Below are positions 17,343-31,254 of a stretch of DNA of 64,000 bases, one piece after another. A model generated the notes under the pieces. It did not search any database. It was not told the DNA's origin and saw only the letters and a program-made list of their open reading frames with translations. Both the position numbers and the translations under genes were made by a program. The stretch lies in the NCBI RefSeq assembly GCF_010894455.1, contig NZ_JAAIXY010000002.1:310001-374000 (forward strand). Direction: 5' to 3'. The DNA is from Myxococcus eversor (GTDB taxonomy: Bacteria; Myxococcota; Myxococcia; Myxococcales; Myxococcaceae). Numbering within the stretch: position 1 is the first letter of the stretch; each line of letters opens with the position of its first letter.

Positions 17343-17644
17343 AGGCGGTGCGGGACGACCCGAGCAAAGAGGGGGTCCGCCTCATAACTCCCAGCCCCGG
17401 CGATGGCCATGGTTGATGGGGCACCCCGCCCGTCACGCAACACCCCCACTTGCCGCTCCCGGCTCCCCCGGGCCCGCGAAACCCGGCGCGGCGTGGTCCA
17501 ACTTCCACCCTGGGAGAGTCACGAAGCCCCCTGGGGTGACTCCGACTTTGTCCAACCGGGCAATGTTCCCGTCCCCTCGTATCAGGGATGCTGGCGGTCG
17601 CCTTCCTGATGCGGGTTCCCGCTAGGGACGGGGGGGAGTGCCAC
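17343..17644. other. 302-bp divergent intergenic region with a palindrome
   Basis: This spacer between the RapA-like gene and a sensor kinase holds no gene. It contains a perfect 7-bp inverted repeat, GAGTCAC (17516-17522) and GTGACTC (17536-17542), with a 13-nt spacer, which could be an operator for either gene. I could not place convincing -35/-10 boxes. Confidence 0.5.
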
Positions 17645-19501
17645 ATGATGCGACGTTGGACGTTCGCTCAGCGAGTCGGGGCGGGTGTGTCCGCCTGCAT
17701 GCTCGCCGGTCTGCTGCTCCTCGCGACACTCCTGTCCGCGGCGCACGGACTGCTCAACCACACCGAGGCCGCGCGCGTCGCGCTGCAACAGACGCTGCTC
17801 GCCGGCTGCGTGGGCCTGGCCGGCGTGGGCGCGCTGGGCTTCGTGCTGCACCACGCGCTGGCCCCGCTGCACGCCCGGCACGAGCACAGCGAGCAGCGCC
17901 TGCGCCTCTTGATGGAGGCCGTGACGGACTACGCGCTATGCTTCCTGGACCGGCACGGCCGCGTCACCGCGTGGAACGCCGGCGCGGAGCGCCTCACCGG
18001 CTGGGCCGCGACGGACGTCACCGGCAGCGCGCTGGAGTGCCTGCACCCCGAGGACGCCGTCGCCGCGGGCGTGCCCCGGGCCCACCTGGAGCGCGCCGCG
18101 CGCGAGGGGCGCCTGTTGTCCGAGGGCTGGCGCGTGCGCCGCGACGGCACGCGCTTCTGGGCGGAGACGCTGCTCACCGCGCTGTGGGACTCGCGCGGCA
18201 GGCTGCGCGGCTTCGCCGAGGTGACGCGCGACATCACCGAGCGCCGCCGCATGGAGCGCGCCCAGGCCCTCTTCGCCGAGGCCGGCCGCGTCCTCCAGCC
18301 GCTCTCTGGAGCCCGCGAAGTCGGCGAGGCCCTCACGCGCCTGTGCGTGCCGGAGGTCGCCGACGCGTGCATCCTCTTCCTGCCTTCCGAGGACGGCCAG
18401 GTGCGTCCCCAGGCCGTCGCCTGCGCGGACGCTCAAGCCGCGAGCCGCCTGTGGGAGCCGCTCTTGCGCAGCCCGCACGGCGACGAGGTGGGCCCCAGCC
18501 ACGTGGTGTGCACGGGCCGCGTGGAGCTCCTGCCGGAGTTGAATCCAGAGCGGCTGCCCCTGGCGCTGGAGGGCACCGCGCATGGCGAGCTCCTGCGCGT
18601 GCTGGGCGTGACGTCCGCGCTCACGGTTCCGCTGGCGGTGGGCTCGCGCGTGCTGGGCGCGCTGTGCCTGCTGTCCACCGGCGCGCGGCGATACGGACAG
18701 GTGGACCGGGCCTTCATGGAGGAGCTGGCCGCGCGCGCCGCCCTCGCCCTGGACAACGCGCGCCTGCTCGCCGAGGCGCAAGGAGCGCTGGAGCTCATCG
18801 GTGTCGCCGCGCACGATTTGGGCAACCCCTTGAGCTCGCTCCAACTGAGGCTGCGGCGGCTGCGCCTCCTGGACGTCACCGCGCACGAGCCCCGCATGCG
18901 CGAGGGCCTGGCGGGCGTGGAGGGCGAGGCGCGCCGCATGGGCCGGCTGCTGCACAACCTGCTCGACTTGTCGCGCCTGTCCGCCGGCCACATGACGTTG
19001 GACCGTGAGGACGTGGACCTGGCCGCGCTGGTGCGGGAAGTGGCCGAACGCCACGCCGAGCAGGCCACCGCCGCCGGCTGCGCCCTCACCGTGCGCGTCG
19101 AGGAGGACGGCGACACCACCGGCAAGTGGGACCGGCTGCGCCTGGACCGCGTGGTGACGAACCTCCTGAGCAACGCGCTCAAGTTCGGCCACGGCCAGCC
19201 CGTCCACCTGAGCGTCCACGGCGATGCCTCTCACGTGCGCGTCACCGTGAAGGACGCGGGCCTGGGCATCGCCCCGGGCGACCAGCAGCGCCTCTTCCGC
19301 CGCTTCGAGCGCCTCCACGGCGACGGCGGCCCTCATCACCCCGGCACCGGCCTGGGCCTCTACATCGCCCACCAGCTCGTCGAGGCCCACGGAGGCTCCA
19401 TCCACCTCCAGAGCCGAATCGGGGAAGGCGCGGAATTCACTATTGAACTTCCCAGGACCCTCCAGGGCAGGTCCTGCCTCGCCTTACAAGTCAGTGTCTA
19501 A
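17645..19501 (+). CDS. Membrane sensor histidine kinase with PAS and GAF domains
   Basis: A 618-residue kinase. Two N-terminal hydrophobic helices (ACMLAGLLLLATLLSAAHGL and LLAGCVGLAGVGALGFVLHH) anchor it in the inner membrane with a very short outside loop. A PAS/PAC domain follows (about 85-200, ending RDITERRRMERAQ), then a GAF domain (about 210-375), HisKA with phospho-acceptor His390 in VAAHDLGNPLSS, and HATPase_c with N box VTNLLSNALKFG, G1 KDAGLGIAPGD and G2 GTGLGLYIAHQLVEAHGG. It has no receiver. The start ATG at 17645 follows GGGGGGAG. The ligand is unknown. No response regulator is adjacent; the nearest is the receiver at 25761. Confidence 0.92.
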   Translation: MMRRWTFAQRVGAGVSACMLAGLLLLATLLSAAHGLLNHTEAARVALQQTLLAGCVGLAGVGALGFVLHHALAPLHARHEHSEQRLRLLMEAVTDYALCFLDRHGRVTAWNAGAERLTGWAATDVTGSALECLHPEDAVAAGVPRAHLERAAREGRLLSEGWRVRRDGTRFWAETLLTALWDSRGRLRGFAEVTRDITERRRMERAQALFAEAGRVLQPLSGAREVGEALTRLCVPEVADACILFLPSEDGQVRPQAVACADAQAASRLWEPLLRSPHGDEVGPSHVVCTGRVELLPELNPERLPLALEGTAHGELLRVLGVTSALTVPLAVGSRVLGALCLLSTGARRYGQVDRAFMEELAARAALALDNARLLAEAQGALELIGVAAHDLGNPLSSLQLRLRRLRLLDVTAHEPRMREGLAGVEGEARRMGRLLHNLLDLSRLSAGHMTLDREDVDLAALVREVAERHAEQATAAGCALTVRVEEDGDTTGKWDRLRLDRVVTNLLSNALKFGHGQPVHLSVHGDASHVRVTVKDAGLGIAPGDQQRLFRRFERLHGDGGPHHPGTGLGLYIAHQLVEAHGGSIHLQSRIGEGAEFTIELPRTLQGRSCLALQVSV

Positions 19502-19765: not shown

Positions 19766-21625
19766 ATGGGTGGACTTGGAGCACCCTGGTCCCAGCGCGA
19801 GGCGTGTGTATCCCGCTCGCTCGGTTACCCCACGGCCAGCCGGAGGTTGCTGGTGGCCGCGGTGACGGGGTTGCTGGTGGCCTGCGGAGGACCGGAGTCG
19901 GGCTCGTCGGAAGAAGCTTTCGCGGTGGACTCGCTGGAGTCGGAGGTCCAGGCGCTGTCGGGGCTGGACGACTCGCGCCGCCCGCGCCCCCCCGAGCCGG
20001 TGGGCCTGGCGCTCGAGGTGGACAATGGCGTGGGCAAGCTCGTGCGCGTGCGCGCGGGCGGCACCTTCTTCATCAGCCAGATTGATATCCGCGCCGCGGT
20101 CATGACCTTCGTCGACCACAAGGACTTGAAGACGCTGCGCACCACCAGCGACTTCGCCGGGCTGGGCTGGACGGGCGTGCGCGCGGTCGACGAGGAGCCG
20201 GTGCTGCTGGGCAACCCCGGCGCGTACACCCGCCGCCGCTTCTACCGGGGCGCCGCGTGGATGGACGTGCCCAGCTTCTTCACCGTGGAGCCGGTGGACT
20301 CGCGCGGCCGCCTCACCGGCCTGCCCGTGCTCCTGAACATCGGCGCCGAGCACCAGCGCCGCGACCGCAGCGACGACTTCTTCATCCGCCGCCTGCGCGC
20401 CATCCACACCACGAGGGACTGCAAGACGCCCACCGACTGCACGGGCGCCAAGGACTTCGAGGAGGAGGCGCTGGTCGAGGTCCGCAACGCGTATGACCAC
20501 GCCAAGGAACGCGCCATCACCATGGCCTCCGGCACCACCGCGCTGCGTCTGCGCTGGAGCCTGCGTCCCTTCGCCCCCTACTCCATCCCCGTGGAGCAGG
20601 TGAAGAACCCGGACTACGCGTACGGCTTCGGCATTGACGTGGCGGCCCTCACCCCGCCGCGCCGCGACGGCACCTACGCGCCCGGGTCCGAAATCACCTT
20701 CCAGGTCACCCTGCGGGACGGGGAAGGAAAACGGCTGCACCCCTCGGGCAGTCTGCCGGCCTACAATGAGGTCGCCCCCATCGGCGGAAACGCGGCGGGC
20801 ATTCAGTACTATCGGGCCTTCTTCGATGCGACGACGACGTACTACCGCCGCAAGCACCGGGAGCGGATGCTGATGACGCAAATCATCGGGCCCGCACAGA
20901 ACATCCAGCCCATCCGCTCCATCATCGACATCGACGCGTTCCTGGACCCGGAGGTCGATGAGCAGGTGGTGGCCACCGAGGCGCGCGACGGCGTGTACTC
21001 GCAGTTCGCGATTCTGCCCTTCGCCAACATCGTCTTCCGCGGCGCGTTCTTCCCCGGAGAGGGCCTCTGGGACCGTCCCAACACGGACACCTGGCAGTAC
21101 ACGATTCCCGCCAACGCCACGCCGGGCACCTATCTGGTGACGGTGAAGGGCCGCCGCGTGTACCTGGGCCAGGACGTGCCGGGCTCGCGCACCATCGAAA
21201 TCCAGGTGGGTTCCAAGAAGCGCACCGAGGCGAAGCTGACGACGGGGCCGTGCAACAGTTGCCACAGCGAGGGCGGAGAGCTGTCCGAAGTCCTCCACGC
21301 CAACGACAACCGCGCCGCCTGCAACGGGTGCCATGCGCCGCTGGGCTTCGAATTGGAAGGCCCCATCTTCGTGCGCACGCACTTCATCCACTCGCGCTCC
21401 AACCGCTTTGATGCGCCGCTGGAGAAGTGCTCCTCCTGTCACCTGACGAAGGAGAGCATCCAGCGCACCAGCAAGGCCGCGTGCCTGTCGTGCCACAAGA
21501 GCTACCCGGACAACCACGTGGCGAAGTTCGGGCCCATCGAGAGCATGTACGTCGGGGGAGGCAGAGAGTCCTTCCAGCAGTGCACCGGCGCCTGTCATAC
21601 CCAGCATCCGCGCGCCGGCCTCTAG
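19766..21625 (+). CDS. Multihaem c-type cytochrome lipoprotein
   Basis: A 619-residue exported protein. A positively charged leader is followed by a hydrophobic stretch and a lipobox (GLLVAC, Cys40), so it is probably lipidated. Residues about 60-480 look like beta-sandwich domains (TFQVTLRDGEGKRLHPSG, GTYLVTVKGRRVYLG). The C-terminal 130 residues hold haem-binding motifs CNSCH (496), CNGCH (519), CSSCH (555), CLSCH (573) and a variant CTGACH (606), so four or five covalently bound haems are expected. An Ig-like domain followed by clustered haems resembles the layout of OmcA/MtrC-type outer-membrane cytochromes, but that family label is tentative. GGAG precedes the ATG. It ends 27 bp before the FIST gene, so it probably heads this operon. 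Confidence 0.85.
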   Translation: MGGLGAPWSQREACVSRSLGYPTASRRLLVAAVTGLLVACGGPESGSSEEAFAVDSLESEVQALSGLDDSRRPRPPEPVGLALEVDNGVGKLVRVRAGGTFFISQIDIRAAVMTFVDHKDLKTLRTTSDFAGLGWTGVRAVDEEPVLLGNPGAYTRRRFYRGAAWMDVPSFFTVEPVDSRGRLTGLPVLLNIGAEHQRRDRSDDFFIRRLRAIHTTRDCKTPTDCTGAKDFEEEALVEVRNAYDHAKERAITMASGTTALRLRWSLRPFAPYSIPVEQVKNPDYAYGFGIDVAALTPPRRDGTYAPGSEITFQVTLRDGEGKRLHPSGSLPAYNEVAPIGGNAAGIQYYRAFFDATTTYYRRKHRERMLMTQIIGPAQNIQPIRSIIDIDAFLDPEVDEQVVATEARDGVYSQFAILPFANIVFRGAFFPGEGLWDRPNTDTWQYTIPANATPGTYLVTVKGRRVYLGQDVPGSRTIEIQVGSKKRTEAKLTTGPCNSCHSEGGELSEVLHANDNRAACNGCHAPLGFELEGPIFVRTHFIHSRSNRFDAPLEKCSSCHLTKESIQRTSKAACLSCHKSYPDNHVAKFGPIESMYVGGGRESFQQCTGACHTQHPRAGL

Positions 21626-21652
21626 CCGCCGCCAGCCCCCCGGAGGTCCTTC

Positions 21653-22816
21653 ATGGCACAAGTGAAGATGCAGACGGCTCGCACCACGTTGAAGGAGCCT
21701 GATGCAGCCGCGGAGGACCTTCTCAGCCAACTGGGCGCCATCAAGCCGGTGCTGGTGACGATGTTCGCCTCGCGCAACAGGGACCAGCACGCCCTGAACC
21801 GCGCGGTGCGAGAGCGGCTGCCCCCGGGCACCCGGCTGGTGGGCGCCACGACGGCGGGCGAGCTGGACAACACCGGCATCCACGAGGGCAGCGTGGTGCT
21901 GTCCGCGCTCTCGGGAGACCTGGAGGTCGGCCTGGGCCTGGGCACCGGGCTCTCCGTGGACGCCATCTCCGCGGGACAGGCGGCCATCAAGCGCGCCTGC
22001 GAGGATTTGGGCGTGCGGCAGCAGGACCTGGACCCGCGCCGGTTTGTCGGCCTCGTCATCGACGACGGCTTCCGCTACAAAAAAGAAGAGCTGCTCCTGG
22101 GCATCCTGGAGCGCAGCCAGACGCTGGTGCTCGTGGGCGGCGGCGCCAGCGACGACAGCCGGGACCCGGCCAGGCAGTCCGCGCTGGTGCACGTGGACGG
22201 AGAGGTCGCCACCGACGCGGTGCTGGTGGCCCTGTTCCGCACCAGCGCGCCGTGGGGTGCGCTGCGCTCGCACTGGTACGTGCCCACCGGAGAGAAGCTC
22301 ACCATCACCAAGGTGGACGAGAGTCACACCCGCGCGCTCGAAATCGACGGCCGCCCGGCCGCGAAGCGCTACGCCGAAATCCTGGGCGTGGAGGACGTGC
22401 GTGACTTGGAGTTCGGCACGCCCCAGGGCTTCGCGGTGCGCCCCACGGCGCTGCGCGTGGGCCGCGAGTACTTCATCCGCGCGGCGTGGAGGCCCCAGGA
22501 GGACGGCTCCATCCTCTTCGCCAACCTGCTGGAGGAGGGCACCGAGCTGGAGCTGATGAGGCTGGGTGACATGGCGGGGATGACGAGGCAGTTCTTCACC
22601 GAAGAGGTGCCCCGCCGGGTACAGAACCCCCAGGCCGCTCTCCTGTTCCACTGCGGCGGGCGCATGTGGTACGCGCATGCGACCAACACGGTTTCCCAGC
22701 TCGCGGAGACTTTGAAGGCCGCACCCACCGCCGCTGGGATGAACGTGCACTTCGAAATCTACTCGGGGTTCCACATCAACACCACGTTGACCACGCTGGT
22801 GTTTGGGGCGAACTGA
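21653..22816 (+). CDS. FIST-domain sensor protein (NosP-like)
   Basis: A 387-residue cytoplasmic protein with both FIST modules. FIST_N (about 30-215) carries LVGATTAGELDNTGIHEGSV; FIST_C (about 225-370) carries LGVEDVRDLEFGTPQGFAV and the closing LLFHCGGRMWY. FIST proteins are small-ligand sensors usually paired with signalling enzymes. In NosP the domain binds haem and nitric oxide and inhibits a co-cistronic hybrid histidine kinase. Here the next gene, 3 bp downstream, is exactly such a kinase. Haem binding is inferred from context and cannot be read from the sequence. GGAGGT precedes the ATG at good spacing. Confidence 0.9.
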   Translation: MAQVKMQTARTTLKEPDAAAEDLLSQLGAIKPVLVTMFASRNRDQHALNRAVRERLPPGTRLVGATTAGELDNTGIHEGSVVLSALSGDLEVGLGLGTGLSVDAISAGQAAIKRACEDLGVRQQDLDPRRFVGLVIDDGFRYKKEELLLGILERSQTLVLVGGGASDDSRDPARQSALVHVDGEVATDAVLVALFRTSAPWGALRSHWYVPTGEKLTITKVDESHTRALEIDGRPAAKRYAEILGVEDVRDLEFGTPQGFAVRPTALRVGREYFIRAAWRPQEDGSILFANLLEEGTELELMRLGDMAGMTRQFFTEEVPRRVQNPQAALLFHCGGRMWYAHATNTVSQLAETLKAAPTAAGMNVHFEIYSGFHINTTLTTLVFGAN

Positions 22817-22819
22817 GCC

Positions 22820-25768
22820 ATGGCCACCTCCCTCACCTCCTCCGTGCCGACGGCGGCCACCGCCACCCTCCTGCTCGTGGCGAGCGAGCGCGAGTGCCAG
22901 CGCGTGGAAGAGGCGCTCGCCCAGGCGGGCGTCGTCGCCCAGGCGGAGCGGGCCACCAGCGTGGAGGCCCTGACGGCCGCGCTGGCGCGTCCCTGGTCGC
23001 TCGTCGTGTGTGGCTCGGAAGTGCCGGGCCTGGGCTTCACGGAGGCGCAGGCGCTGTGGCGCAAGCACTCGCGCGAGCTGCCCTTCGTCGTGCTGTCGCG
23101 CGACTGGAGCGACGACACGCTGGAGGCCAGCACCCGGGCGGGCGCTCGCGACTACGTCACCGAGGACCGCTTCAACCGGATGGCGCCCGTGCTGCGCCGC
23201 GAGCTGCCCCTGGCCGGAGACAGGCTCCGCCACGACGCCACCGCGGAGGAGCTGCACCGCACCAACTGGATTCTGGGCAACATCATCGACGCTCTGCCCT
23301 TCGTCCTCTTCGTGAAGGACGCGGCGACGCGCCGGCTGGTCGTGGCCAACAAGACCTTCGCTGACGCGTTCGGCGTCACCAAGGAGTGGCTGCTCGGCAA
23401 GCTGGACCACGACTACTTCCCGCGGGAGCAGGCGGACTCGTTCGTCGCCATCGACTCCGACATCCTCTCCTCCAAGAAGATGCGCTCCTTCGAGGAGGTG
23501 GCGCGCGCGGGCGGCGTGGACCGCATCTTCGCCACGCGCAAGCTGCCGCTCCTGGATGGCGGCGGCGAGGCCCGCTACGTGCTGGGCGTCACCGAGGACA
23601 TCACCGAGCGCAAGCAGAACGAGGAGATGCTGCGCGCGTCCAAGGCGGAGCTGGAGGCGGCCAACAAGCAGCTCGCCGCCAGCCTGGAGGAAATCAAGCG
23701 CACGCGCGCTGTCTCCGCCCGCTCGCTGGCGTCCTACCAGCAGCGCGCGCTGCAGATGGAGATCATCCGCCAGCAGAACGAGGACCTGGACCGGCTGGCC
23801 CAGGAGCTGGCGCTGGCCAAGCGCAACGAGGAGGAGCGCGCCCGCGAGGCCGAGGCCGCGGTCCGCCTCAAGAGCGAGTTCCTGGCCAACTTCAGCCATG
23901 AAATCCGCACGCCGCTCAACGGCATCATCGGCTACTGCGACCTCTTGATGCGCGAGGAGGGCTCGCGCCTGACGGCCCATGGCCGCCGCGACCTCAACGT
24001 CGTCAAGACGAACGCGAAGACGTTGCTCGCGCTCATCAACGACATCCTGGACCTGTCCAAGATTGAAGCGGGCAAGGTGGATGTCGTCACCGAGCCGGTG
24101 GACGTGCAGGAGCTGGCCGACGAGTGCATGGCCACGGTGAAGGAGTACCTCAAGGGCAAGGACGTGGCCCTGACGACGCACATCGACGGCCAGGCGAGCA
24201 TGCTGCGCACCGATGCGCTGAAGCTGCGGCAGATCATGCTCAACCTCCTGAGCAACGCCGCCAAGTTCACCGACACGGGCGAAGTGGCGCTGAGCATGGT
24301 GCCCTCCGGCGACGAGGTGGTGATGACGGTGGAGGACACCGGCGTCGGCATCCCCTCGGACCAGCTCCCCTTCATCTTCGAGAAGTTCCGCCAGGTGGAC
24401 GGCTCCACCACGCGCAAGGTGGGAGGCACGGGCCTGGGGCTGGCGATTGTGCGCGAGCTGTCGCGCGTGCTCGGCGGCAACGTCAGCGTCGTGTCCACGC
24501 TGGGCCGGGGCACCACCTTCACCGTGCGCCTGCCCAACAACATGGCGGACCGGTCGGAGGACGCGCCGCAGGTGGCGGTCCACGAGCGCGGCGTGCCGGT
24601 GGCGGAGGTCGCCCAGCACGTGAGCTCGCTGGCGCAGCCCGGCAGCACGGTGCTGGTGGTGGATGATGATCCGCTCATCCAGCAGCTCGTCACCGGCCAG
24701 TTGGAGCCCGCGGGCTTCAAGGTGGTGGTGGCCGAGGACGGCATCGCCGCCCTCAAGCGCGCCCGGGAGCTCCGGCCGCAGGCCATCCTGCTGGACATCC
24801 ACCTGCCCAAGCTGGACGGCTGGTCCGTGCTCAGCCAGCTCAAGGGCGATGAGTCGCTGGCCAGCATCCCCGTCATCCTCATCTCGGTGGAGGAGCAGCG
24901 CGCGCGGGGCTTCTCGCTGGGCGCGTGCGAGTACCTCGTCAAACCGGTGGAGCCCGAGCGCCTGGTCGAAGTGGTGCAGCGCTGCCTGGGCCAGCCGTCC
25001 GGCGGCGCGTCCGCGGGCGACGTGCTGGTGGTGGACGACGACTCCGCCACGCGCGAGCTGGTCAGCCGCAACCTGCGCCGCGCCGGCTTCTCCACCGCCG
25101 AGGCGAGAAACGGCGAGGACGCGCTGCTCAAGGCCCGCGTCTCACCGCCGTCGCTCGTCGTGCTCGACTTGATGATGCCCAACCTGGACGGCTTCGAGGT
25201 GCTGCGCCGGCTGCGCGCGGAGAAGCTCCAGGTGCCCGTCGTCGTGCTCACCGGCAAGTCGCTCACCCACGAGGAGGAGTCGCTCCTGCGCGACGGCTTC
25301 GCCGGCTTCGTGAAGAAGGGCGGCCACGCGCTGGAGGACGTCATCGCCCAGGCCAAGGGCCTGCTGTTGTCCCAGCGCGCCGCCAGCGCCGGCAGGCTGC
25401 CGCGCATCCTGTATGTGGAGGACAGTGCCCAGAATCGGGACATCGTCCGGCGCTACCTGGGTGGACTGTTCGAAGTCATCGAGGCGGAGGACGGAGAGCA
25501 CGGACTGGAGCGCGCGACGCGCGACAATCCGGACCTCATCCTGATGGACCTCTCCCTGCCGCGGTTGGATGGTTGGGAGGCAACACGTCGCTTGCGTGCG
25601 GTACCCTCCGTGGCCAACGTGCCGGTCATCGCGGTGACGGCTCATGCGGGGCGGGAATATCAGGACAAGGCACACGCGGCGGGCTGCACCGCGTACCTCA
25701 CCAAGCCCCTTGATCGTGACCTGTTGCTCGAGATGATCCGCAAGCATCTAGGGAGAAGCCATGGTTGA
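22820..25768 (+). CDS. Hybrid histidine kinase: pseudo-receiver, PAS, kinase, three receivers
   Basis: A 982-residue soluble hybrid kinase. An N-terminal receiver-like domain (about 10-130) lacks the acidic pair and phospho-Asp (VVCGSEVPG where VVLDLMMP is expected), so it is a pseudo-receiver. PAS/PAC follows (about 150-275, ending [13 protein letters not shown]), then a coiled coil, HisKA with His360 in [12 protein letters not shown], and HATPase_c ([26 protein letters not shown]). Three complete receivers come next, with phospho-Asp in [24 protein letters not shown] and [12 protein letters not shown]. The last eight bases overlap the next receiver gene. Partnered with the FIST protein, it probably integrates that signal and passes phosphate to the small receiver downstream. 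Confidence 0.93.
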
Positions 25769-26156
25769 AGAAAAAGCACGCGTCCTGGTGGTGGACGATG
25801 ACCCGGACCTGCTCGACCTCGTCCAGCGCTCGCTGAGCTCCTACGGCTTCGAGGTGCTGACCCACACCTCGGCGCTGGGTGTGTCGAACCTCGTGAGCGC
25901 GTCCGAGCCGGACTTCGTCCTCATCGACGTCAACTTCCCCGCCCTCAAGGGCGACAAGGTCGTCAACCTCGCGCGCCAGTACGCCTCCGCGAAGACGAAG
26001 TTCATCCTCTACTCGGCCTCGGACGAGTCGAAGCTGCGCTCGCTCGCGCTGGCCTCCGGCGCGGACGGCTACATCTCCAAGAGTGTCCAGGGCGAGGAGC
26101 TGGCCAACCGGCTGCGCACCTTCCGCCTCAAGCCGCGCCCGCCCTCGGGCACCTGA
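25761..26156 (+). CDS. Single-domain response regulator (receiver only)
   Basis: A 131-residue stand-alone receiver: acidic pocket VVDDDPD, phospho-Asp in FVLIDVNFPAL, Ser/Thr in LYSASDES, Lys in GYISKSVQG. There is no output domain, so it likely acts by protein contact or as a phosphorelay shuttle. It overlaps the hybrid-kinase gene by 8 bp and is the last gene of the 19766-26156 operon. It is strikingly similar to the receiver at 30850 (about 60% identical by eye, including LGVSNLV, SASDESKLR, LALASGADGYI and QGEELA). Confidence 0.93.
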   Translation: MVEEKARVLVVDDDPDLLDLVQRSLSSYGFEVLTHTSALGVSNLVSASEPDFVLIDVNFPALKGDKVVNLARQYASAKTKFILYSASDESKLRSLALASGADGYISKSVQGEELANRLRTFRLKPRPPSGT

Positions 26157-26311: not shown

Positions 26312-27199
26312 ATGCACACGCCACATGGTTACAGTTATGCGGAAAAGTTGCGGCAGGAACTGGATGAGCCTCTCTTCAACCCGATGTTGAAGAAATGGGT
26401 AGGCCGAGGAGAGCTCGACTACGAGGTCTACCTCAAGACGCCGCAGCTCCTGGCGTTGCAGGCCACCGAGGAGCAGCGCGTCTCGCATGACGAGCTGATG
26501 TTCCAGGTGGTGCACCAGGCGCAGGAGCTGTGGCTGAAGCTGGCCTCGCGCGAGGCGGTGGAAGTCGTGGCGGAGTTGGACCGCGACGCGCTGTGGGCGG
26601 CGTCCGCGCGGCTGGAGCGGGTGTCGCGCATCGTCCTGGGCCTGAAGTCGGAGCTGGCGGTGCTGGAGACGATGACGCCGGACACCTATCAGGTCATCCG
26701 TCGCAGCCTGGGCAATGGCAGCGGGCAGGAGTCCCCCGGCTACAACATGCTGCGCAAGGCGGCGGAGGGACTGGAGCAGGCCCTGGAGCGACTCCTCGCG
26801 CGCCGAGCGCGGACGTTGTTGGACGTGTACCGAGGCGGTCCTGACGACCTGAAGCGGTTGTGCGAGCAGTTCGTGGACGTGGACGAGGCCTTCCAGGGCT
26901 GGTTGCACGCGCACTTCCAGCTGGTGCGGCGCACCATCGGCGTGGACCGCTCCGTGAAGGCGCTGGACGGGCTGCCCACGCAGGTGCTGGCGGGGCGGAT
27001 GACGCTTCCCCTGTTCCGCCAGCTCTGGGACGTGCGCGTGGAGCTGACGGCGGGGTGGCGGCGCGAGGGCGGCCATGCGCCAGGCGCCCGCCGCGAGGGC
27101 TGCATGGAGGGAGCGATGGGCGCCTACGCCACCGCGCCGATGGCGGCGGCCGGGTGCCCGGTGCACCCGGGAGGCTTCCCTCCCCGGGGCGAATCGTGA
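26312..27199 (+). CDS. Tryptophan 2,3-dioxygenase family protein (KynA-like)
   Basis: A 295-residue member of the haem-dependent tryptophan dioxygenase superfamily, which opens the indole ring of Trp to N-formylkynurenine, the first step of the kynurenine route. Recognisable parts are YLKTPQLLALQ, SHDELMFQVVHQAQELWLK (Phe64 and distal His68), and YQVIRRSLGNGSGQESPGY with Tyr126 and Arg130, which fit substrate-binding residues of characterised enzymes. His201 in AHFQLVRRTIG fits the proximal haem ligand. The usual GTGGS substrate loop after it is replaced by GVDRSVKALDGLP, so activity on plain tryptophan is uncertain; relatives in secondary metabolism use modified Trp. The stop overlaps the methyltransferase start (GTGA). 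Confidence 0.85.
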   Translation: MHTPHGYSYAEKLRQELDEPLFNPMLKKWVGRGELDYEVYLKTPQLLALQATEEQRVSHDELMFQVVHQAQELWLKLASREAVEVVAELDRDALWAASARLERVSRIVLGLKSELAVLETMTPDTYQVIRRSLGNGSGQESPGYNMLRKAAEGLEQALERLLARRARTLLDVYRGGPDDLKRLCEQFVDVDEAFQGWLHAHFQLVRRTIGVDRSVKALDGLPTQVLAGRMTLPLFRQLWDVRVELTAGWRREGGHAPGARREGCMEGAMGAYATAPMAAAGCPVHPGGFPPRGES

Positions 27200-30849: not shown

Positions 30850-31254
30850 ATGTCGGAGAAGAAGATCCGCGTGCTGGTGGTGGATGATGACCAGGAGCAG
30901 CTCGACCTGGCGGAGCGCTCGCTGTCCGCGTATGGCTTCGATGTTCGCACGCACCGCTCGTCGCTGGGCGTCTCCAACCTGGTGCGCACGACGCTGCCGG
31001 ACCTGGTGCTGCTGGACGTCAACATCCCCGCGCTCACCGGGGACAAGGTGCTGACGCTGGCGCGGGGACAGGCCCCGGCCGGCACGCGCTTCGTGCTCTT
31101 CTCCGCCTCCGACGAGTCCAAGCTGCGCGCGCTGGCCCTGGCCTCGGGCGCGGACGGCTACATCACCAAGAGCACCCAGGGCGAGGAGCTGGCCAAGAAG
31201 CTCCACGCCATCCACGCCAAGGGCCGCACCGGAGCGTCCGCGCCGGCCCCGTAG
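30850..31254 (+). CDS. Single-domain response regulator, paralogue of 25761-26156
   Basis: A 134-residue stand-alone receiver with VVDDDQE, phospho-Asp in LVLLDVNIPAL, LFSASDES and Lys in GYITKSTQG. GGGGGAGG precedes the ATG. It is about 60% identical by eye to the receiver at 25761, and their alpha4-beta5-alpha5 faces are nearly the same, suggesting a shared or competing partner. It ends 13 bp before the convergent UbiB-like gene. Confidence 0.93.
   Translation: MSEKKIRVLVVDDDQEQLDLAERSLSAYGFDVRTHRSSLGVSNLVRTTLPDLVLLDVNIPALTGDKVLTLARGQAPAGTRFVLFSASDESKLRALALASGADGYITKSTQGEELAKKLHAIHAKGRTGASAPAP

Follow-up and report, generated by a model that had tools for sequence, protein, structure and literature searches.

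FIST proteins studied as sensors have been reported to bind haem and/or NO, and in Burkholderia pseudomallei the FIST protein NosP binds and inhibits a kinase without a recognised sensor domain. A review from 2022 notes how scarce knowledge of the substrates bound by FIST is. RodK of Myxococcus xanthus (MXAN_0733) has long been known as a fruiting-body switch. It is required for development (PMC2129111), its gene is mapped at 33 degrees on the M. xanthus chromosome (mxan0733, PMC3778016), and fruiting requires each of its three receiver domains, the third of which is phosphorylated by RodK (PMC3868531). Transcripts of rodK and of MXAN_0736, a histidine kinase according to the literature, are altered in a pxr mutant. 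In the literature we found no source that names the signal of RodK. Here, we describe an operon in which a cytochrome gene and a FIST gene precede a kinase that is very probably the RodK orthologue.

The window, i.e. the whole analysed stretch of 64,000 nucleotides from Myxococcus eversor, contains the following features.

19766 to 21625, + strand: exported pentahaem c-type cytochrome lipoprotein, 619 residues (lipobox LLVACG; four CxxCH and one CxxxCH)
20000 to 21205, + strand: beta-rich part of the cytochrome, residues 79-480 (AF2 model, weak Foldseek matches, alignment conservation)
21251 to 21607, + strand: pentahaem segment of the cytochrome (ten His and ten Cys invariant in the orthologue alignment)
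21653 to 22816, + strand: cytosolic FIST protein, FIST_N and FIST_C, 387 residues (Pfam, 2e-32 and 4e-14)
22820 to 25768, + strand: hybrid histidine kinase, very probably the RodK orthologue, 982 residues (Pfam, literature)
22862 to 23224, + strand: pseudo-receiver, N-terminus of the kinase (read from the sequence; no Pfam receiver match there)
23288 to 23617, + strand: PAS_4 domain of the kinase (Pfam, 6e-17)
23648 to 23887, + strand: coiled coil of the kinase, residues 277-356, candidate FIST docking segment (counterpart in a Nannocystis STAS protein)
23870 to 24538, + strand: HisKA and HATPase_c of the kinase (Pfam)
24644 to 25741, + strand: receiver domains R1-R3 of the kinase (Pfam Response_reg, three stretches)
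25761 to 26156, + strand: single-domain receiver, presumably RokA (Pfam, 3e-19)
26312 to 27199, + strand: tryptophan-2,3-dioxygenase (TDO)-like protein, conserved next gene (Pfam, 9e-24; PDB alignment)

The cytochrome and FIST genes are separated by 27 bp, the FIST and kinase genes by 3 bp, and the kinase and receiver genes overlap by 8 bp, exactly as given in the original prediction, whose claim of a single operon is supported. Neither promoter nor terminator scans produced a signal better than chance. Long antisense ORFs were dropped, being GC-rich mirror frames, and the upstream kinase gene (17588-19501) was rejected as a core member as it is absent from several genera that keep the four-gene cluster. 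No membrane-spanning or hydrophobic segment is predicted in the FIST protein, the kinase or the receiver. The prediction also spoke of an "envelope" signalling chain, and this part is not supported: nothing encoded in the operon spans the membrane, so that an exported cytochrome and its cytosolic operon partners should not meet directly and any link between them would be indirect.

A lack of this neighbourhood in relatives had been named as evidence against the prediction, and the neighbourhood turned out to be strongly conserved. The order cytochrome, FIST, kinase, receiver is present in every complete syntenic locus that we read in large-genome Myxococcaceae, and the same cluster is kept in three more distant Myxococcales, two MAGs (L089 and L091) and L105, a complete genome of 4.35 Mb from another family. 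Within the family the cytochrome-FIST gap measures 25-40 bp, nearly all complete loci read share the 8-bp overlap, and the cytochrome orthologue and the RodK-type coil occur in an identical set of genomes (65 out of 195 in the phylum), with three further genomes having only a distant cytochrome paralogue. The kept order, the kept overlap and this co-occurrence argue for a clustering beyond chance. The host genome (11.4 Mb) has one FIST gene of this kind, and within the family close FIST orthologues (69-100% identity) are found in genera with large genomes and are absent from those with small ones. A Labilithrix MAG (L088) has FIST and RodK with the cytochrome missing, two Nannocystis genomes (L090, L092) have FIST with RodK missing, and some genomes carry extra FIST copies without the other operon genes (L048-L050). 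L105 (10875-16745) has two tandem copies of the kinase-receiver pair, in the first of which the kinase shifts reading frame near residue 833. A record titled "Comamonas sp. KCTC 72670" (L069) contains a Myxococcus-type locus with 90% FIST identity and looks mislabelled.

The kinase consists of a pseudo-receiver, a PAS domain, a coiled coil, HisKA, HATPase and three receivers. By this architecture, its map position and the order of locus tags it is very probably the orthologue of M. xanthus RodK. In the pseudo-receiver both the phospho-acceptor Asp and the Lys are replaced. The operon lies on the minus strand in two complete relatives, at 874 kb of 8.97 Mb (G062, 35 degrees) and at 863 kb of 9.32 Mb (G077, 33 degrees), in agreement with the position of MXAN_0733. 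This strand, together with the kinase MXAN_0736, indicates that the locus tags run against the operon direction. MXAN_0736, three tags from MXAN_0733, then fits the gene upstream of the cytochrome, since there are exactly two genes (0735 and 0734) before RodK. By tag order, the cytochrome would be MXAN_0735 and the FIST protein MXAN_0734 in M. xanthus, and if the kinase is RodK the receiver would be MXAN_0732. The receiver at this position is probably RokA, which reportedly was tested together with RodK in 2009 and is important for pilus-dependent motility. A close paralogue of this receiver is located 4.7 kb downstream (30850-31254), at a position conserved in many relatives.

In most genera, and also in L089 and L091, the TDO-like gene is found close to the cluster. 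Its haem-site residues His68 and His201 are invariant in 36 out of 36 homologues; according to the PDB alignment it has lost the substrate loop GTGGSSG and carries Val or Ile in place of the catalytic Thr. By tag order the gene sits at the position of MXAN_0731, which is named socE, a stringent-response inhibitor (PMC4320627). If 26312-27199 truly corresponds to MXAN_0731, SocE would be a TDO-family protein. The cytochrome was also considered as socE and rejected, given the minus-strand operon in complete relatives and the identity of MXAN_0736 as a histidine kinase. A published description of SocE is said to differ from the TDO-family reading.

The cytochrome is probably an exported pentahaem protein for electron transfer. 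It has an export signal, and its C-terminal part carries four CxxCH motifs and one CxxxCH (CTGACH), all invariant in the orthologues. In fifteen orthologues the ten Cys, the five proximal His (500, 523, 559, 577, 611) and five further His, candidate distal ligands (511, 539, 542, 584, 614), are all invariant, a pattern that puts the protein among the predicted multihaem c-type cytochromes and suggests five bis-histidine haems of the electron-transfer type. Such haems usually transfer electrons rather than bind gas. Residues 79-480, with Cys219 and Cys225 invariant, probably form several Ig-like beta-sandwiches; the AF2 model has intermediate confidence in this part, and Foldseek gives only weak, generic beta-sandwich matches. 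In the haem segment, modelled with no cofactors, the pLDDT is about 30-40. The nearest models for this segment are Cytochrom_c3_2, Cytochrome_C7 and the MtrC/MtrF domain II/IV, all below cut-off. The last of these (PF22113) reaches 13.9 bits against a gathering score of 30, and it matches 14 out of 26 homologues at E <= 0.01 (best 3e-6). A PDB sequence search with the cytochrome gave only weak matches to UndA and MtrC.

The lipidated multihaem cytochrome of the original prediction is confirmed for this protein by the lipobox LLVACG and the five haem motifs, but among the orthologues the anchor is common without being general. L043, L044, L046, L047/L085 and L105 have either an ordinary signal peptide or no recognisable lipobox, so export is conserved and the lipid anchor is not. 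Most of these genomes also contain a second pentahaem cytochrome with the same layout and about 30% identity; in G000 (L106, G000:C35:239815-241380) it has genes for a Rieske oxygenase and a cytochrome c in its vicinity. In another genome (G036, L110:6330-9816) a close duplicate of the cytochrome (63%) adjoins an oppositely oriented PAS-containing histidine kinase gene, so that a cytochrome is once more paired with a kinase.

We propose that RodK has the soluble FIST protein as its sensor. FIST would dock on the coiled coil just upstream of HisKA, and a change in its ligand state would alter the kinase activity. RodK would then phosphorylate both its third receiver and the single receiver of the operon, presumably RokA, where the phosphotransfer is taken from the literature and the role of RokA is as reportedly described, and these receivers would control aggregation and sporulation as well as pilus-driven motility. 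The cytochrome, made from the same transcript and exported mostly as a lipoprotein, would most likely be an electron shuttle in the envelope that matches the redox state of the cell to the pathway; it would either supply the FIST signal or be a co-regulated respiratory part. Taken as a whole we find this proposal fairly probable. Its core, that FIST tunes RodK, is likely; that FIST acts through haem or NO is a tentative idea that we lean against, and it is somewhat unlikely that the cytochrome functions in the same pathway as FIST and RodK. The most specific version, in which FIST, docked on a transplantable coil that a STAS protein also carries, conveys haem, NO or redox state to the developmental switch, and in which the pentahaem cytochrome, perhaps together with the TDO-like protein, is the redox partner of the pathway, is improbable.

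The FIST protein matches PF08495 with 113.1 bits (gathering score 23.2) and PF10442 with 53.2 bits (28.5). Its AF2 model is confident (pLDDT 90), and the modelled fold matches the FIST domain of human FBXO22 and toblerone-fold enzymes; no FIST structure was found by PDB sequence search. His180, His207, His333 and Cys334 are invariant within this clade, which makes them candidate ligand-site residues. The FIST_C motif is DC in the compared FIST proteins and HC here. This difference, the failure to reach the NosP model, the role of rodK as a starvation-development gene and the scarce knowledge of FIST substrates noted in the 2022 review would all fit a FIST protein that tunes RodK by sensing a non-haem small molecule, e.g. 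a metabolite that falls in starvation, with the cytochrome being only a co-expressed envelope electron carrier. However, the FIST sensors studied so far are reported to work with haem or NO, and the neighbourhood is rich in haem proteins, with a pentahaem cytochrome and a TDO-like protein that has kept both haem-site His. We judge this explanation unlikely, though it is the strongest of the alternatives.

A docking site for FIST on RodK is suggested by the coiled coil (residues 277-356). The kinases of L089 and L091 have neither PAS nor pseudo-receiver, and the coil is their sole element before HisKA. In Nannocystis the gene after FIST encodes not a kinase but a 228-residue STAS-domain protein, whose N-terminal part carries a RodK-type coil (ALASFQQHALAMEVIRQKNEELDRLTAEL, compared with the RodK core). 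The likeness was first noticed in L092, where a comparison that used only the window sequence showed 49% identity. In 65 phylum genomes a coil profile matches only RodK (E <1e-30, next best 7e-4), where the E-values are helped by some matched sequences being part of the profile. Besides RodK, the profile recovers the STAS protein next to FIST in two Nannocystis genomes and, in a third with an incomplete FIST, a remnant of it; these two intact genomes and one remnant are the only context of the coil unrelated to RodK. Because the coil is the only part before HisKA in the sensor-less relatives and is also present in an unrelated FIST-adjacent protein, it probably docks FIST. Counting against FIST as the sensor, RodK could use its own PAS domain and pseudo-receiver, which are both found in Myxococcaceae RodK, with PAS_4 also in Labilithrix RodK; FIST and cytochrome would then serve something else and be merely co-transcribed. 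However, FIST also adjoins the coil-only kinases of L089 and L091, and the Labilithrix locus keeps FIST and RodK together without the cytochrome, so we rate co-transcription alone as improbable.

The observation in the original prediction that a FIST gene stands beside a soluble hybrid kinase, as in NosP-kinase pairs, holds, but the reading of the pair as NosP and NahK is not supported. Despite the same gene arrangement and an alignment along the entire NosP model (NF041558, E 9e-49), it is very unlikely that the operon is a true NosP-NahK pathway for nitric oxide to which a cytochrome has been added, given that FIST reaches 166.5 bits against an equivalog cut-off of 450 and the C-terminus of RodK 216.4 bits against 400 (NahK/ErcS, NF041832), that an Azospirillum pair, the positive control, passes both (NosP 500.5 bits, partner kinase 489 bits), and that the nitrite reductase model NirK gave only sub-threshold matches in four genomes including this one.

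In our reading of FIST as a likely regulator of RodK, the known parts of the operon are RodK and probably RokA. A signalling chain of an undescribed kind, as originally predicted, is too broad a claim for the kinase and the receiver, which very probably have already been studied; FIST and the cytochrome are, as far as could be checked, undescribed partners of RodK, with both the fixed linkage and the coil being new. With FIST as a candidate sensor and the coil as a candidate docking segment, the question of the RodK signal becomes directly testable. If the proposal is true, FIST-kinase signalling reaches beyond c-di-GMP control, and the coil may show more generally by what means FIST proteins recognise the proteins they work with. 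A TDO-like gene at the tag position of socE, a starvation-alarm regulator, would join redox, starvation and development at one locus.

With RodK and RokA of M. xanthus the locus shares the three C-terminal receivers, the single receiver gene behind them, the map position and the tag order; the upstream FIST and cytochrome genes were not found discussed with RodK in the literature examined, which excludes the original RodK papers. The cytochrome resembles a single pentahaem domain of the outer-membrane cytochromes MtrC, MtrF and OmcA, since a beta-rich domain precedes a compact stretch that carries five haem motifs and five additional His. It differs from these cytochromes by its five haems instead of ten, one CxxxCH motif, a score below the Pfam cut-off and an operon that encodes no porin or MtrA-like partner. 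As in NosP-NahK and the NosP-NosK-NosR system of Burkholderia, the FIST gene adjoins genes for a soluble histidine kinase and a receiver protein, and FIST would be a separate sensor subunit. In contrast to these systems, both proteins here are far below the curated NosP and NahK cut-offs, the kinase has three receivers, the output protein consists of a receiver only and lacks a c-di-GMP domain, and a cytochrome has been added.
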